A stretch of 63,961 bases of DNA. Origin: an uncultured Bacteroides sp. GTDB lineage: Bacteria; Bacteroidota; Bacteroidia; Bacteroidales; Bacteroidaceae. The notes beneath the pieces were generated by a model. That model was not told the origin of the DNA. It saw only the letters and a program-made list of their open reading frames with translations, and did not search any database. The stretch spans positions 1 through 63,961 of the forward strand of contig UQPQ01000011.1 in assembly GCA_900542985.1 (NCBI GenBank), written 5' to 3'. The translations under genes and the position numbers were made by a program. Within the stretch, counting starts at the first letter, position 1; each line of letters begins with the position of its first letter. Of this stretch, positions 56,354-63,961 are shown one piece after another.

Positions 56354-56758
56354 ATGGAAGAATTGATGGTAGTAGCCAATGTGGCAATTGTATTTGGAGT
56401 AATTTATAAATTGTTTGAATTGTTTGCAGGACGTCGTGAACGCATTCTGATGATTGAAAAACTGGCAGATAAGTTGGACGCCGAATCGTTGAAAGAAGGA
56501 AAGTTGCCGGCTTTTCATTTGCCAGCTTCTAGTTCCGGATTACGTTTGGGATGTTTGCTGGTAGGACTTGGCTTAGGCTTATTGGCAGGTTATGCTTTGG
56601 TTGTCGGTACTCAGCCGGAGTATTTCTCCGATTCTTATTCTTCGCGTGTAGGTGAGACCGTATCGATTATTTACGGAGCTTGTGTCTTGTTGGGTGGAGG
56701 CGCCGGACTGATTGTGTCATTTCTGATTGAAGTGGCAAGGGCTAAGAAAAGCAAATAA
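56354..56758 (+). CDS. Small membrane protein, DUF6249-like
   Basis: 134 residues: an N-terminal helix (about 3-25), a charged loop (GRRERILMIEKLADKLDAESL) and two C-terminal helices (about 64-84 and 105-126). It matches what I remember as DUF6249, small inner-membrane proteins often beside ECF sigma genes in Bacteroides. It shares the sigma factor's promoter type, so it is probably part of the regulon. Function unknown. Confidence 0.7.
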   Translation: MEELMVVANVAIVFGVIYKLFELFAGRRERILMIEKLADKLDAESLKEGKLPAFHLPASSSGLRLGCLLVGLGLGLLAGYALVVGTQPEYFSDSYSSRVGETVSIIYGACVLLGGGAGLIVSFLIEVARAKKSK

Positions 56759-56763
56759 GATTA

Positions 56764-56791
56764 ACCCGTTGGCGGAATTCCGCCAACGGGT
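56764..56791. repeat. 28-bp perfect palindrome, copy 1
   Basis: Perfect palindrome centred on GAATTC, with core GTTGGCGGAATTCCGCCAAC. It starts 6 nt after the DUF6249-like stop codon. A copy identical at 24 of 28 positions lies at 59152-59179, just after the next gene. Confidence 0.85.
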
Positions 56792-56840
56792 ATGTATATC
56801 TTTATTCTTATACATAATCTTATGTAATAAAATAGTATTT

Positions 56841-59144
56841 ATGGGAAATTTGAAGCTAACACTACTTCCGGTAGTGTTTTTTTTGTGCACTTATTCTCTT
56901 TTAGCTCAAAATATTTTAAGTGGTAGCATAACGGATGAGTCTGGTGAACCTATTTGGGGTGCTACAGTACAGGTCTTGTCGGTAGATTCAATACATGTCG
57001 GAGGTACGATAACTGATGGGATGGGTAAATTTCGGATAGAAAGCTTGAAAACGGGTGATTATGTATTGGCGGTAAGCAGTGTTGGATTCATTAAAATTTT
57101 TCTACGTTTCGAAATGCCCGATAAATCCTATACTCTTCCTACTATGGCGTTGAAAGCGGACAATATCATGCTGGAAGGAGTGACTGTGACCGGAAGTTCA
57201 TTCATTCAAAAGAAAGACCATTTGCTCGTTCTTCCAAACAAAACTCAAGTGAAGCATTCCTTTTCCGGTTACGACCTGTTGTACAACCTGATGATACCGG
57301 GATTGACTGTAGACAGGAAGAACAAGACTGTGTCGTCTATGACTGGAAGTGCTACTCTCTATATCAACGGAGTGGAAGCCGATGCGCGTGAAGTACAGAA
57401 CTTGCGGCCTAAGGACATTGAGCGGGTGGAGTATTACGTACTTCCCACGAACGGAAAGTTTGCCGGTGACGCAGCTTCCGTGAATTATATTACCAAGACC
57501 TATAGTACCGGTGGATATGTTACGCTGGATGGCAGTCAGAATGTCGGCTATTTGAAAGGGGATTACAATTTTGGTGCTAAACTTTCCTGCGGTAATACCA
57601 ACTATGCTTTTTGGAGCGGATATACAATGAGCGGTTACGATGGGGTAACGACTGGAAAACGAGAAGATTTGTCTTTCCCCGATTATGTCATCGGCAGACA
57701 ATCGGAACAGAGCGGAACCGATTATTGCAATAATCAACAATATGCTCAGTTGAAAGTGAGTAATGACAACAAGAAACGCAGTCTTTCCGCTTCCGTTTCG
57801 GTGGTTCGTGACGCTACACCGCACGACAAACAGTGGGGTATTTTGGATTACGAAGGTTACGATATTCATCATACGGAATCTGCCGGCAGCAAAGAAAGTG
57901 AAAGTATGCGTTCGTCGGTAAATCTGAACGGGATCTTCTACCTGAATCCTGCGCATCAGCTTAAAGTCCGCCTGAATGGCGGCTATACACAGAATGGTTA
58001 TAGGCGGACTTACAGTGAGGAAGGTTTACAATCTCTTTCGGATGTGAACGAGGATTTGTATGCTTTCGATGCTCAGGTTGCTCATTTGTTCCAGCCTGAT
58101 GCCGCCAATTCTTTGTATAGTCGGGTTACTCATTTCCATAATATTACTTCATCGCTCTATGGTGGTGACCATGCTTCGTGGCAGCATTTGTGGAAGGGAG
58201 AAACGCTCTTTCAATTCGATTACACACACCAGTTTGGTAAAAAATGGATACTGATGCTCAGTCCCGGTGCATCGTGTCTTACCTATAAACTACACGGTCA
58301 GGAGTTGTCAAACGCATGGAATTTACGTGTCAATTCGTGGGTGCGTTATGTACCAGACTCCAAACAATGGGCGGGTGCCGGTTTTTCGTTTGGGAATAAT
58401 CAGCCAGATATCAGTTACCTGAATACTTCCAGTCAGACTGTGGATTTGTATCAGATAAAGCGCGGAAATCCTTATTTGGACAATACCGCCTTATACAATT
58501 GGTTTGCAATGTATGCGGGGCAACTTCATACTTTGCTAGGTTTGCAGTGTCGGGCATGGTATACGATGAACAGGCATAGCGTGTCGTCCGCTTATTTTAT
58601 AGAGGGGGACAAACTGATAAGCAGTTACGTTTCGGACCATTCGTTCAATACTGCTAATGTGGAATTGTCGGTATCTAGCCGTATATCGGAAAATTTGCAG
58701 ACGAATGTTGGTGTGAAATATGGATATATGTATGTACCCGGCAAGTCTGGTTTGTCGCAGGACAATTTATCTGCTTCGATTGATGTAAACTATTTTATCC
58801 GGTCTTTCTCTGTGAACTTATATGCCCGGAGTGCCGAAAAGTTACTTGACGAGCAGACGTTAGTATTCAGAAAAATGCCTGTATCCTACGGACTTTCTGT
58901 CCGCTATAGCGGACAGAACTGGATGGCTGAAGCTGGTACGGAAAATCCGTTTACCAAACATGTCCATTACCGGGAATATGCCGATTATGGAGTTTATCGG
59001 TACAATCAAGTGAGCACAAGCCGTATATACCAGCAAACTGCTTATGTAAAATTAGCTTATACTTTCGATTTTGGTAAGAAAACCTCTCGTGAATCCAATA
59101 ATATAGATAGAAGTATTAACAGTGCAATATTGAAAATAGAATAA
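56841..59144 (+). CDS. Outer-membrane beta-barrel protein of the TonB-receptor superfamily
   Basis: 767 residues from MGNLKLTLL (an in-frame upstream ATG at 56727 lies inside the preceding gene and is rejected). Signal peptide ending SLLAQ, then a carboxypeptidase-regulatory-like domain (about 24-105, GSITDESGEPIWGATV), a plug-like region (LYNLMIPGLTVDRKNKTV ... LYINGVEADAREVQNLRPKD), and a C-terminal barrel of the OMP_b-brl_3 type. No SusD partner follows. Both sides carry the same palindrome. Substrate unknown. Confidence 0.82.
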   Translation: MGNLKLTLLPVVFFLCTYSLLAQNILSGSITDESGEPIWGATVQVLSVDSIHVGGTITDGMGKFRIESLKTGDYVLAVSSVGFIKIFLRFEMPDKSYTLPTMALKADNIMLEGVTVTGSSFIQKKDHLLVLPNKTQVKHSFSGYDLLYNLMIPGLTVDRKNKTVSSMTGSATLYINGVEADAREVQNLRPKDIERVEYYVLPTNGKFAGDAASVNYITKTYSTGGYVTLDGSQNVGYLKGDYNFGAKLSCGNTNYAFWSGYTMSGYDGVTTGKREDLSFPDYVIGRQSEQSGTDYCNNQQYAQLKVSNDNKKRSLSASVSVVRDATPHDKQWGILDYEGYDIHHTESAGSKESESMRSSVNLNGIFYLNPAHQLKVRLNGGYTQNGYRRTYSEEGLQSLSDVNEDLYAFDAQVAHLFQPDAANSLYSRVTHFHNITSSLYGGDHASWQHLWKGETLFQFDYTHQFGKKWILMLSPGASCLTYKLHGQELSNAWNLRVNSWVRYVPDSKQWAGAGFSFGNNQPDISYLNTSSQTVDLYQIKRGNPYLDNTALYNWFAMYAGQLHTLLGLQCRAWYTMNRHSVSSAYFIEGDKLISSYVSDHSFNTANVELSVSSRISENLQTNVGVKYGYMYVPGKSGLSQDNLSASIDVNYFIRSFSVNLYARSAEKLLDEQTLVFRKMPVSYGLSVRYSGQNWMAEAGTENPFTKHVHYREYADYGVYRYNQVSTSRIYQQTAYVKLAYTFDFGKKTSRESNNIDRSINSAILKIE

Positions 59145-60410: not shown

Positions 60411-61598
60411 ATGAAACTGAAAGGTAATGTACATTATGTTGGTGTAAACGACCGTAACAAACATTTGTTTGAAAATCTGTGGCCGTTGCCCTATGGCGTA
60501 TCTTATAACTCTTATTTGATTGCAGACGAAGAAAAAGTGGTTCTGGTAGATACGGTAGACGTTTGTTATTTTGAACTGTATCTGAAGAAAATCCGCAATG
60601 TGATTGGAGACAGAAAGATTGATTACCTGATTATTAATCACATGGAACCGGATCATTCGGGTTCTTTGGCTTTGATCAAGCAGCATTATCCCGATATTGT
60701 ATTGGTAGGTAACAAGAAAACTTTCGATATGGTGGAAGGTTACTATGGGGTAACCGGTGAGCGTTTGGTGGTAGCCGACGGTGATTCTTTGAACGTAGGA
60801 CATCATAAACTGAACTTCTATCTGATTCCGATGGTGCACTGGCCGGAAACAATGGTTACATTCGATTCTACTGAAGGAATCTTGTTTGCGGGTGATGCCT
60901 TTGGCTGCTTTGGTGCATTGAACGGCGGATGTATCGATAAGGATATCAATACAGATATTTATTGGAACGAAATGCGTCGTTACTACTCAAACATTGTGGG
61001 TAAATTCGGAAATCCGGTACAGAAGGCTTTGCAGAAATGTAGCGGTCTTGATATCAAGATGATTTGTTCTACTCACGGTCCGGTATGGGAAGAAAATATT
61101 GCCAAGGTAGTAGACATGTACGATAAGATGAGCCGTTATGAAGCAGAAGAAGGAGTAGTGATTGCTTACGGTACTATGTATGGCAATACAGAAGAAATGG
61201 CTGAGACCATTGCCGAAGAACTGAGCGCACAGGGCATCCGTAATATTGTAATGTATAATGTGTCACATACACATCATTCGTTTATTCTGTCGGATATCTT
61301 CAAGTATAAAGGATTGATTGTAGGCTGTACTACATACAATATGAATCTTTATCCTGAGATGGAAGCTTTGCTGAGTAAGGTAGCTGCACGTGAGATGAAG
61401 AACCGTTATATGGGATATTTCGGCTCGTTTACATGGGCTAGTGCTGCAGTGAAGAAGTTGTGTGAATACAGTCAGAAATTGAATTTCGAATTGGTGGGTG
61501 AACCTGTAGAAATGAAGCAGAGTATGAAGGCGGATAGCTGTCAGAAGGCTAAAGAATTGGCTAGAGCAATGGCAGAGCGCTTGAAAGCCGACCGTTAA
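60411..61598 (+). CDS. Flavodiiron protein (FprA/A-type flavoprotein)
   Basis: 395 residues; reduces O2 to water and/or NO to N2O in the cytoplasm of anaerobes. N-terminal metallo-beta-lactamase-like domain with a full set of diiron ligands: His77, Glu79, Asp81 (HMEPDH), His143 (VHWPE), Asp162 (AGDAFG) and His222 (STHGPVW). C-terminal flavodoxin domain from about 245, with the FMN phosphate loop YGTMYGNTEEMA. No rubredoxin domain is fused, so a separate electron donor is needed. Confidence 0.95.
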   Translation: MKLKGNVHYVGVNDRNKHLFENLWPLPYGVSYNSYLIADEEKVVLVDTVDVCYFELYLKKIRNVIGDRKIDYLIINHMEPDHSGSLALIKQHYPDIVLVGNKKTFDMVEGYYGVTGERLVVADGDSLNVGHHKLNFYLIPMVHWPETMVTFDSTEGILFAGDAFGCFGALNGGCIDKDINTDIYWNEMRRYYSNIVGKFGNPVQKALQKCSGLDIKMICSTHGPVWEENIAKVVDMYDKMSRYEAEEGVVIAYGTMYGNTEEMAETIAEELSAQGIRNIVMYNVSHTHHSFILSDIFKYKGLIVGCTTYNMNLYPEMEALLSKVAAREMKNRYMGYFGSFTWASAAVKKLCEYSQKLNFELVGEPVEMKQSMKADSCQKAKELARAMAERLKADR

Positions 61599-61729: not shown

Positions 61730-63016
61730 TTATTTTGATAAACTGAAGCGCAATCCGAATTGCAGGTTGAAGTTGAACGGGTGTTGCTTGCGTATAGTTT
61801 CTACATCGCTTCCATCATCAAAGTAATAAGCCATACCAGGTTCAATGTAGATACCGAATCGTTTGACTATATTTACCTGTGCTCCTACAGCAGCCATTAC
61901 CGACCATTGCAGAGGAGATATATCCAGCGATCTCGTCTCTTTTTCTATGCTGTTGGTATCGTATGCATAAGTAACTTCCTGTTCCCCCGATACACATTTC
62001 TCTACCATTCCTCCGGCAGAAGCATAGAAGTTGAATAGCTTGTTTTGCCAGATGGTACGGTGTATTTTCAGAGGGATACCAATATAATGTAGTTTTTGTT
62101 CTTCTTCTACGTACGATTGGGATCCCGAATGAAGTTCGGAAGACAGTAAAGTATAATTCAATCCACTTTCAATGGCCCAGTCGTCATTCAGATTCCATTT
62201 TACAGAAGCTCCTATTGTAACAGGAGTGCGATGACGTATATCGGTTTGAGTGACTTGTTCTCTGTTATTCAATAAAACCTGACTATAAGCAGCTTCTACC
62301 CGATTGGTCGGATTGAGTGTTTCGAGCGACATGACCCGTGTATCCAAACGTCCAAAGCCTCCGAAAGAGGAAGAGGTGGAATAAGGAGTGTTCCCTGCAG
62401 TTACACCCACAGACCATTTCTGTTTATTGGAAGCCTTGGATTGTGCGTATGCCAGATATTGATTTCTCTGCATTTGCCTTTTATCAGCTTCCATACGCTG
62501 CTGGCGAAGTTGCTTGGTGTCTTCTGTATTTTCTTTTTCTGCTTTCGTGATGTTATTTTCTTCTGTTTTTTCACTTTCTTCTTTTATGATAGCAGGTGCC
62601 GGAATTTTTTCTTCAACCGGCAAAGTAGCATAGGTTTGTGGTGATACTTCGTCTGTTGTTTTCTTTATTTGTCCTTGAGCAAGGTACTCATGCGCTTCGG
62701 AAGGTGTAACTTCTTTTACCGTGACCTGAGGAAGTGAACTTTCATTTACGGTATGAGGTTGTACTTCCTGTGATGCGACAGGTATCTGTTGTATATATTG
62801 TGCCGAAGGAGAAGACCAGAACCAAACTGTCAATGAAGAAACAGCCAGTACCAGTACTGCTGCTGCAGCTGTTGTTTGCCATCTGCGCCACATTGGAATA
62901 ACCTTGGGAGCAGGCAATTCTTTTTCCAGCTCTTCCCATAGATGAGAGGGAAGCGGTTCGGAATAGTCTTCCAAGCTTTTACGTATATCCTGAATCCATT
63001 TGTCCTCTTTCTTCAT
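61730..63016 (-). CDS. Dual-membrane-spanning anti-sigma factor (Dma-like)
   Basis: 428 residues. A soluble acidic/basic N-terminus (1-45, KWIQDIRKSLEDYSEPLPSHLW) would be cytoplasmic. One membrane helix spans about 48-67 (TTAAAAVLVLAVSSLTVWFW). A low-complexity Glu/Lys/Gln/Thr linker (about 70-200) is long enough to cross the periplasm. The C-terminal part (about 205-428) is an 8-strand PorT-like outer-membrane barrel ending LRFSLSK. The ORF starts within the last 4 nt of the ECF sigma gene. This matches the dual-membrane-spanning anti-sigma family reported in B. thetaiotaomicron. Sigma binding is inferred. Confidence 0.82.
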   Translation of the reverse strand: MKKEDKWIQDIRKSLEDYSEPLPSHLWEELEKELPAPKVIPMWRRWQTTAAAAVLVLAVSSLTVWFWSSPSAQYIQQIPVASQEVQPHTVNESSLPQVTVKEVTPSEAHEYLAQGQIKKTTDEVSPQTYATLPVEEKIPAPAIIKEESEKTEENNITKAEKENTEDTKQLRQQRMEADKRQMQRNQYLAYAQSKASNKQKWSVGVTAGNTPYSTSSSFGGFGRLDTRVMSLETLNPTNRVEAAYSQVLLNNREQVTQTDIRHRTPVTIGASVKWNLNDDWAIESGLNYTLLSSELHSGSQSYVEEEQKLHYIGIPLKIHRTIWQNKLFNFYASAGGMVEKCVSGEQEVTYAYDTNSIEKETRSLDISPLQWSVMAAVGAQVNIVKRFGIYIEPGMAYYFDDGSDVETIRKQHPFNFNLQFGLRFSLSK

Positions 63017-63567
63017 TGTGCTATTTGTTTTCTATATTCGTTAATTCTTTTTTGCAATAAACTTTTGGCACGGTAGAACTGTGACGATGAGGTATGTTCT
63101 GCAATGCCTAATAAAGAAGCTATTTCTTTGTGACTCTTGTTCTCGAAAATATATAAGTTTAATACCATTCGGTATCCTTCCGGTAATTCTCTGATAAATT
63201 TCATGAGAACAGAGGGAGGAATTTCGTTTATTGAATTTTCGTTTTCATTGGTTTCCTGATCGGGTACTTCTTCCATCAATACCTCTTGCTGCATCTGGGT
63301 ATTGCGTTTCCTGAGAAACCCCAGTGCTTCATTTACCATTACTTTGGATAGCCAGGCCTTTAAGGACCCTTCGCCCTGATAGGTAAATTGTCCAATTGAT
63401 TGAAAGATGCGTAAAAATCCGTCGTGCAGAATATCTTCTGCACTTTCTCTATCGCCGGAATAACGGAGACAAATAGCCATCAGCTGACCGCCGTAACGCT
63501 CATAAAGAAGCTTGCGGGCTTTGTTATCTGCTCGCTTACATTGTAACGCCAACTCTTCTTCTGTCAT
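63013..63567 (-). CDS. ECF RNA polymerase sigma factor (Das-like)
   Basis: 184 residues. Region 2 includes YGGQLMAICLRYSGDRESAED and GSLKAWLSKVMVNEALGFLRK; region 4 includes LPEGYRMVLNLYIFENKSHKEIASLLGI ... SQFYRAKSLLQKRI. Its last 4 nt overlap the start of the dual-membrane anti-sigma gene, so the two are translated together. It is divergent from a NigD-like lipoprotein gene, a likely target. Confidence 0.93.
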   Translation of the reverse strand: MTEEELALQCKRADNKARKLLYERYGGQLMAICLRYSGDRESAEDILHDGFLRIFQSIGQFTYQGEGSLKAWLSKVMVNEALGFLRKRNTQMQQEVLMEEVPDQETNENENSINEIPPSVLMKFIRELPEGYRMVLNLYIFENKSHKEIASLLGIAEHTSSSQFYRAKSLLQKRINEYRKQIAQ

Positions 63568-63678
63568 ATCCGGTTTTATTCTCTGTTTTTATTTTTAAAA
63601 TGAAGATGAGGTAAATTTACTGCATCTGATTCATTACTTTTTTTTATTAATGTATTTTAACAAACGGGCATGCAGTGA

Positions 63679-63722
63679 ACTTTCTTTTCTTGTATTTAAG
63701 AGATGAAACTAAAAAAGAAAGT
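63679..63722 (+). promoter_or_regulatory. Inverted repeat just before the NigD-like start codon
   Basis: ACTTTCTTTT (63679-63688) pairs with AAAAGAAAGT (63713-63722), ending 5 nt before the ATG. As RNA it would cover the ribosome-binding region; as DNA it could be an operator in the 160-bp divergent gap. Function is inference. Confidence 0.4.
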
Positions 63723-63727
63723 GTATA

Positions 63728-63961
63728 ATGAAACTTCTAAAACAAATGCATTGCATGTCCCTTGTATTAGGGAGTATTTTCCTTTCATCTTGTTTGAATG
63801 ATGATGAGCCGGAAGGATTTTATTCTACGTTGGGTACAGTTACGGAAGTGGGCACTAATCTGACTTTTGAATCGGACTCTTACGGCTTGTTAAAGCCTAC
63901 TAATCCGAACTGGTTTATTGTTGAAAAAGCAGACTCAGTCGGGCAACGTGTATTGTCTGGA
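63728..63961 (+). CDS. NigD-like lipoprotein (partial, cut by window end)
   Basis: The first 78 codons are present and open to the window edge. The signal ends in LSSC, with lipidation at Cys22, followed by acidic LNDDEPEG. The segment GFYSTLGTVTEVGTNLTFESDSYGLLKP is typical of the N-terminal OB-like domain of NigD proteins. It is divergent from the ECF sigma/dual-membrane anti-sigma operon; in B. thetaiotaomicron a NigD gene linked to such a system affects vesicle formation, as I recall. Confidence 0.8.
   Translation, partial: MKLLKQMHCMSLVLGSIFLSSCLNDDEPEGFYSTLGTVTEVGTNLTFESDSYGLLKPTNPNWFIVEKADSVGQRVLSG

Follow-up and report, generated by a model that had tools for sequence, protein, structure and literature searches.

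A sigma factor, a two-membrane anti-sigma factor and a divergent nigD gene in an uncultured Bacteroides: a locus of the EcfO-Reo (Das1-Dma1) type with twin promoter-like sites

Genes and proteins of the locus

The last 2.2 kb (61730..63961) of a 63,961-base stretch from an uncultured Bacteroides sp. (contig UQPQ01000011.1, assembly GCA_900542985.1; the whole stretch is termed the window here) hold three open reading frames (ORFs), as stated in a preliminary description of this DNA: an extracytoplasmic function (ECF) sigma factor gene, the gene of its putative anti-sigma factor, and the 5' part of a divergent gene for a NigD-type lipoprotein (Table 1). The sigma ORF matches the Pfam models Sigma70_r2 (E 3.3e-15) and Sigma70_r4_2 (E 2.1e-12). 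On homology and gene order, the locus represents a further copy of a known switch, confirmed and well conserved. The switch itself is known; what is new here is evidence, from twin promoter-like sites, that nigD lies under the control of the sigma factor. No plasmid match to 61730-63961 was found among 72,556 plasmid records searched in 'near' mode.

The anti-sigma protein had been described beforehand as spanning both membranes, and this topology is borne out by hydropathy, a Pfam barrel match, structure prediction and a 132-residue tether. The Pfam model OMP_b-brl_2 (PF13568) covers residues 191-390 (E 1.7e-11). An AlphaFold2 (AF2) model, the kind of structure prediction that the preliminary description had proposed for this 428-residue protein, was built from a 27-row alignment and places helices at residues 2-16, 24-33 and 45-68, disorder to about residue 155, a helix at 156-195 and then a barrel, for which OmpA barrels were the top matches of a Foldseek search against the PDB (best E 2.7e-8). 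Mean predicted local distance difference test (pLDDT) is 65.8, with averages of 57-70 across residues 1-30, values below 50 for residues 35-156, and 10-residue means of 48-60 for 211-240 and 76-94 from residue 241 on. Because pLDDT is below 50 at 35-156, the call of an inner-membrane helix leans on hydropathy as much as on AF2; the most hydrophobic 19-mer of the protein begins at residue 48. Seven residues (W7, Y18, S19, E20, L22, P23 and W27) are invariant across the 27 anti-sigma sequences, and by homology the N-terminus that carries them would hold the sigma factor, the contribution of the sequence itself being a conserved motif.

Between the predicted inner-membrane helix and the barrel, the tether measures 113-149 residues (median 131) in 79 proteins (window plus 78 related loci), whereas its mean majority-residue fraction is 0.20 (residues 69-155) and 0.25 (156-200) compared with 0.53 for the N-terminus and 0.55 for the barrel. 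A length that is kept when the sequence is not may point to a rope spanning the periplasm. The full-length protein finds its best match at 54% among 61 genomes of the genus of Phocaeicola coprocola, 57 of which give a match, and it is 46% identical to the protein of Phocaeicola vulgatus. Anti-sigma factors of this kind, whose single chain extends from cytoplasm to outer membrane, are termed unusual in the literature.

To place the locus among its relatives, genome contigs were scanned with the 27-row anti-sigma alignment; 176 relatives were confirmed and the best 80 loci were kept, a sample biased to close kin. An upstream sigma ORF could be placed in 78 of the 80, the other two (L063 and L075) being cut at a contig end. 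A NigD profile matches 58 of the 78 loci, with the gene divergent in 54 and co-directional in four, and 20 loci have no NigD match nearby, among them L054, L069 and L070 with less than 700 bases upstream. Because the same arrangement recurs in 54 of 78 related loci, the layout is more than chance; P. vulgatus ATCC 8482 (L029) has the divergent nigD-sigma-anti-sigma layout seen in the window.

Within the window, 78 residues of the NigD protein are encoded, and these match NF051862 (NigD1/NigD2 lipoprotein) with an E-value of 2.6e-5 and 24.1 bits against a cut-off of 60, fragment residues 5-76 aligning to model positions 5-77. No Pfam match was returned for the 78-residue fragment, the Pfam families of NigD proteins being NigD_N and NigD_C. 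Three full-length positional orthologues were tested, and all lie above the NF051862 cut-off. Using the fragment as a phmmer query, 31 full-length ORFs were matched in the 80 related loci (E <= 1e-3; best match P. coprocola, E 1.1e-18), and all 31 stand immediately upstream of the sigma gene in divergent orientation. An LSSC lipobox followed by acidic residues can be read by eye from the translation of the fragment.

Table 1. Positions of the genes, protein regions and promoter-like elements in the window, and of DUF4840 genes in four related loci
Feature	Position	Strand	Extent, basis or remark
ECF sigma factor gene, orthologue of EcfO (P. vulgatus) / BT_4720	63013..63567	-	184 aa; Pfam regions 2 and 4
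Two-membrane anti-sigma gene	61730..63016	-	428 aa; start codon overlaps sigma stop by 4 bp
Predicted cytoplasmic anti-sigma domain, residues 1-44, conserved YSEPLP	62885..63016	-	AF2 helices 2-16, 24-33; invariant residues
Predicted inner-membrane helix, residues 45-68	62813..62884	-	hydropathy peak at 48; AF2 helix, low pLDDT
Predicted periplasmic tether, residues 69-200	62417..62812	-	132 aa; disordered to ~155, then helix
Predicted C-terminal outer-membrane beta-barrel, residues 201-428	61733..62416	-	PF13568; AF2; Foldseek OmpA
Divergent NigD lipoprotein gene, 5' part	63728..63961	+	78 codons; ORF cut by window end
-35-like box TGCAGTA, sigma-facing	63618..63624	-	intergenic alignment
-10-like box CATTTT, sigma-facing	63597..63602	-	spacer 15; intergenic alignment
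-35-like box TGCAGTG, nigD-facing	63671..63677	+	intergenic alignment
-10-like box TATTTA, nigD-facing	63693..63698	+	spacer 15; intergenic alignment
TTTAACA element	63656..63662	+	conserved; 8 nt upstream of nigD-side -35-like box
DUF4840 lipoprotein gene beside sigma gene	L060:4687-5241	same as sigma
DUF4840 lipoprotein gene beside sigma gene	L066:4733-5284	same as sigma
DUF4840 lipoprotein gene beside sigma gene	L061:4726-5328	same as sigma
DUF4840 lipoprotein gene beside sigma gene	L080:4735-5331	same as sigma

Twin promoter-like sites between the sigma gene and nigD

An alignment of 55 intergenic regions (the window and the 54 divergent loci) revealed the pattern TGCAGTA-N15-CATTTA facing both ways, one copy towards the sigma gene and one towards nigD. 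The degenerate form TGCAGTR-N14-16-YATTT occurs twice in the 63,961 bases of the window, both times between the sigma gene and nigD, compared to a mean of 0.15 in shuffled windows, two of 100 of which contained two or more. The geometry is conserved as well: the two -35-like boxes are 46-48 nt apart in 51 of 53 readable regions (46 in the window, 63625-63670), and TGTTAAA is found in 48 of 55 regions, in 47 of them exactly 8 nt from the nigD-side box. These sites are putative promoters of the adjoining sigma factor.

Two further readings of the intergenic region were considered and set aside. The central TGTTAAA was not adopted as the sign of a third regulator, [TC]TTAAC[AC]-N8-TGCAG also standing before three of the 11 unlinked nigD genes that have a site (L081, L083 and L085). 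A housekeeping promoter (TAnnTTTG, the -7 consensus) over the sigma-side box was not claimed: GCAGTA..TTTG, which 36 of 55 regions contain, is missing from the window.

The sites were then scored with a weight matrix built from 98 sites, from which the window was excluded, with a threshold of 12 and with shuffles made by single letters. Of the 54 divergent loci, which trained the matrix, all reach the threshold on their sigma side and 52 do so on their nigD side, against two of 270 letter-shuffled regions. Because these loci trained the matrix, loci without nigD and unlinked NigD genes weigh more as tests. Twenty-four loci have no divergent nigD (the 20 without a NigD match and the four co-directional ones). 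Ten of them, all Bacteroidales (L006, L008, L009, L030, L033, L037, L042, L065, L069 and L073), retain a sigma-facing site (12.5-23.1) and show none towards nigD (-6.1 to 5.9); the absence of nigD is less sure in L069, which has 463 bases upstream. L070, with 230 bases between the contig end and the sigma gene, has both sites. The nigD-facing half is present with nigD and missing without it.

It is conceivable that the genes are coincidental neighbours, nigD being no target of the adjoining sigma factor, and the 20 loci without a nearby NigD match would fit this, three of them with the short upstream sequence noted above. The twin sites, of which the nigD-facing one is absent where nigD is absent, and the published EcfO dependence of P. 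vulgatus nigD genes (PMC13114119) speak against it, and we regard this explanation as very improbable. The divergent nigD is instead very probably a target of the sigma factor next to it, and the twin sites thereby uphold the link between the two that had been proposed in the preliminary description.

We next considered NigD genes elsewhere, using a NF051862 search of seven whole genomes that gave 30 matches, 29 of them with an ORF (all except L108). Six of the 29 are genes of divergent loci, and five of these score higher than every one of their 60 shuffles. Among the remaining 23, unlinked NigD-family genes, 11 score at least 12; ten of them lie above all 60 own shuffles, and the other, L081 (12.2), lies above its 95% mark and under its own best shuffle (13.7). 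Two genes under 12, L090 (6.8) and L100 (6.3), are nevertheless above their own 95% marks. Among the P. vulgatus genes, the site stands before the divergent nigD (L105), L088, L081 and a weak family member, L109, and no site was found before the NigD-family genes L095, L101 and L110.

A pattern search of the seven genomes yielded 48 matches compared to 13 for the reversed control. Twelve pattern loci were inspected, several of which have no lipoprotein gene downstream, and the cases of this wider set are leads. In Bacteroides congonensis, a perfect promoter-like site stands before a lipoprotein gene without a family match, followed by a gene for a Yip1-domain membrane protein (L118:1573-2911). 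A perfect site in P. massiliensis precedes a NigD-like lipoprotein gene just under the cut-off, at 58.4 bits (L121:1620-2369, the same gene as L106). The site also stands before a lipoprotein gene in B. congonensis (L125) and in Bacteroides xylanisolvens (L112), identified as DUF4840 by Pfam, which was run on L125.

DUF4840 genes were also seen beside the sigma gene itself, directly upstream of it and in line with it, in four of four distant-relative loci picked by eye (Table 1); in L060 and L066, NigD precedes the DUF4840 gene. Parabacteroides gordonii carries a further sigma/two-membrane anti-sigma pair (L172:3613-6210) with a BF3042-type NigD_N-like lipoprotein gene directly downstream, and no promoter-like site was found before its sigma gene (matrix score -3.2).

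Relationship to EcfO-Reo and Das1-Dma1

Two named systems resemble the locus: EcfO-Reo of P. vulgatus and Das1-Dma1 of Bacteroides thetaiotaomicron, whose Dma1 we take to be BT_4721. The preliminary description had pointed to Dma/Das, a kinship that is supported by orthology and by synteny to BT_4719-4721; the identity as EcfO-Reo went unmentioned there. By the sequence comparisons that follow, the locus is orthologous to EcfO-Reo-NigD of P. vulgatus and, by synteny, to BT_4719-4721 rather than to the Dma2 operon.

The sigma factor of the window is 77% identical to that of P. coprocola, 65% to that of P. vulgatus, and 55% and 47% to the first and the second (Das2-type) copies of B. xylanisolvens. 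In trees of both proteins, the window falls in a five-row clade with P. coprocola, P. faecium, P. plebeius and B. mediterraneensis (support 99/100 in the anti-sigma tree and 97/88 in the sigma tree); eight of 20 inner branches are open in each tree, as are part of the deeper forks, and the paralogues sit on long branches with unsure places. The divergent nigD and this clade placement both assign the locus to EcfO-Reo/Das1-Dma1 rather than to Dma2.

As in the window, the two-membrane anti-sigma gene of P. vulgatus lies downstream of the sigma gene and a nigD adjoins the pair, with consecutive tags for anti-sigma (M0N98_03760), sigma (03761) and a nigD of the regulon (03762) (PMC9308784, PMC13114119). 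NigD genes are part of the EcfO-Reo regulon of that species, whose sigma factor is 65% identical to the window's and whose anti-sigma factor is only 46% identical.

B. thetaiotaomicron was outside the genomes searched, and synteny to its genes runs through B. xylanisolvens, which has two sigma/anti-sigma pairs (L170 and L167). The gene order of L170 (ferritin-like, LysR, aquaporin, nigD, sigma, anti-sigma) fits BT4715, a DNA-binding protein (PMC12596196), the NigD family name BT4005_BT4719, and the sigma/anti-sigma pair BT_4720/BT_4721 (PMC10861873). Downstream of the second pair (L167) lie DUF4943, DUF4858 and nitronate monooxygenase genes, the neighbourhood described for the Dma2 operon and its surroundings (PMC13088901). 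Das1-Dma1 (BT_4720/BT_4721) would accordingly be the same locus by synteny, and it shares the four-part Dma layout (PMC13088901); its vesicle effector in B. thetaiotaomicron is nigD1 (BT_4005), however, and not the gene beside the pair (PMC13088901). Das2-Dma2 (BT_1559/BT_1558) has the same architecture and kind of sigma pair (PMC13088901), but its downstream genes differ from those of the window locus, and the stretch upstream of the Das2-type sigma gene in B. xylanisolvens has a matrix score of 6.7 and that upstream of the P. vulgatus paralogue one of 7.9, both below 12.

EcfO and the Dma family are both named in PMC13088901, PMC13114119 and PMC12596196. No statement that EcfO-Reo and Dma1 are orthologues occurs in the available text of these three papers, and the original 2013 and 2024 papers may have one; the case that EcfO-Reo and Das1-Dma1 represent one orthologous locus is made by the present comparison. 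An EcfO motif is reported as known for Bacteroides fragilis (PMC7366714), and in the one published match to TGCAGTA that was examined, the sequence belonged to a cloning oligo.

Envelope stress, barrel assembly and vesicles

Taken together, these findings make it highly probable that a Phocaeicola-like gut bacterium here carries the EcfO-Reo (Das1-Dma1) envelope-stress switch, acting on nigD. The computed part of this picture comprises gene order, topology, orthology and the twin sites, together with the lack of a nigD-facing site in loci that have no nigD; sigma binding, the signal, release, the role of the sites as sigma promoters and the job of NigD we infer. The anti-sigma factor would be anchored in the inner membrane, cross the periplasm with its length-constrained tether and end in the outer-membrane barrel, while its cytoplasmic N-terminus, on homology, would hold the co-encoded sigma factor. 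Upon outer-membrane damage or failed barrel assembly, the anti-sigma factor would let go, possibly by proteolysis. The freed sigma factor would read TGCAGTA-N15-CATTTA promoters, amplifying its own operon and switching on the divergent nigD and further NigD-type lipoproteins at unlinked sites. Altered vesiculation is one plausible downstream effect.

Because of the toxin induction and regulon data from P. vulgatus, envelope stress is the best-supported role, with vesicle output a possible consequence. The EcfO-Reo pair is reported as the most induced genes of P. vulgatus under BcpT or bacteroidetocin A (PMC13114119), the sigma gene rising 33-fold upon BcpT exposure (PMC9308784), and as strongly expressed in the mouse gut (PMC13114119, PMC9308784). 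A transposon in the anti-sigma gene changed 15 genes, 14 of them upwards (PMC9308784). The published EcfO regulon holds three nigD genes, and one NigD, M0N98_03293, was made in broth only upon deletion of reo or toxin stress and was not made in mice without the EcfO-Reo pair (PMC13114119). In B. fragilis, EcfO-Reo is tied to oxidative stress by citing papers (e.g. PMC9308784), and BT_4720/BT_4721 has been proposed for testing in bile stress (PMC10861873).

Several observations weigh against an envelope-stress switch acting on nigD at this locus. The NigD fragment scores under the cut-off of its family, AF2 confidence is low at the anti-sigma N-terminus and inner-membrane helix, and both nigD-side boxes of the window are one base off consensus. 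Among the 24 loci without divergent nigD, 13 have neither site at 12 or above, including six of six from Chryseobacterium, so the promoter code does not hold throughout the family. Of the unlinked NigD-family genes, 12 of 23 score below 12, including both of Parabacteroides gordonii, and one divergent-locus nigD (L086, 17.3) lies below its own best shuffle (19.4). Finally, the NigD that was blotted in P. vulgatus, M0N98_03293, is not the one numbered beside the pair (PMC13114119).

A version of the favoured explanation with a named signal casts the protein as a sentinel of barrel folding: when its own barrel fails to be assembled by the beta-barrel assembly machinery (BAM), the anti-sigma protein would expose its periplasmic part to proteases and so free the sigma factor. 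This would agree with the barrel and the N-terminus being the conserved parts of the protein, with induction of the P. vulgatus pair by bacteroidetocin A, which targets BamA (PMC13114119), with the rise of BepA- and DegQ/DegP-like protease genes under such treatment (PMC8546649), and with transposon insertions in the anti-sigma gene turning the regulon on (PMC9308784). However, a folded barrel that senses ligand, tension or damage would give the same observations, and BcpT, which binds lipid A-core and not BamA, also induces the pair (PMC9308784, PMC13114119); in this specific form the idea seems to us rather unlikely.

From the resemblance to Dma/Das/NigD, the preliminary description had also suggested control of outer-membrane vesiculation. 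The kinship behind this suggestion stands, but the vesicle-related NigD of B. thetaiotaomicron is nigD1 (BT_4005), not BT_4719 (NigD2, by synteny), the counterpart of the divergent gene. In its strong form, the system would be a dedicated vesiculation switch that mainly sets vesicle output via the divergent NigD. Loss of Dma1 does raise vesicles in B. thetaiotaomicron through nigD1, and loss of Dma2 does so through Das2 (PMC13088901); NigD M0N98_03293 appears in P. vulgatus supernatant, which its authors ascribe to vesiculation (PMC13114119). Yet the extra vesicles of the dma1 mutant need BT_4005, so that the vesicle-active NigD is not the divergent gene (PMC13088901), and in P. vulgatus and B. 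fragilis it is toxins, outer-membrane damage and oxygen that the orthologues respond to. Moreover, the presence of a NigD gene is no guide to vesicle control, because Dma2 loss raises vesicles without raising nigD1 (PMC13088901). We consider a dedicated vesiculation switch improbable, and more so than the folding sentinel.

Returning to the envelope-stress switch, a broader hypothesis, to which we give slightly less than even credence, is that EcfO-Reo and Das1-Dma1 are one system with one code, TTTAACA-N8-TGCAGTA-N15-CATTTA (the first element optional), in which a twin promoter of fixed geometry would serve the sigma operon and nigD and turn on a set of lipoproteins (NigD paralogues, NigD-like and DUF4840). 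In that case, a single lipoprotein-coat response, raised when the sensor barrel cannot stay in the outer membrane, would have vesicles, toxin protection and oxygen tolerance as its read-outs. The twin sites provide a sequence rule, usable without mutants, for NigD and other lipoprotein genes that are possibly under the switch, and they tie work on oxygen and toxin stress and work on vesicle control to one orthologous locus.

Two neighbouring genes complete the picture of the region. A flavodiiron-type gene (60411-61598; metallo-lactamase and flavodoxin domains by Pfam) is convergent with the anti-sigma gene, and its DNA is 80% identical to that of P. coprocola, the best of 301 family genomes, 115 of which matched. 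A link to oxygen through this neighbour was rejected, its counterpart in P. coprocola, the one genome compared, lying about 36 kb from the anti-sigma gene. Further away, an 805-residue ORF (56727-59144) has a carboxypeptidase-regulatory-like domain near its start, matched by two overlapping Pfam models, and possibly encodes an outer-membrane receptor.

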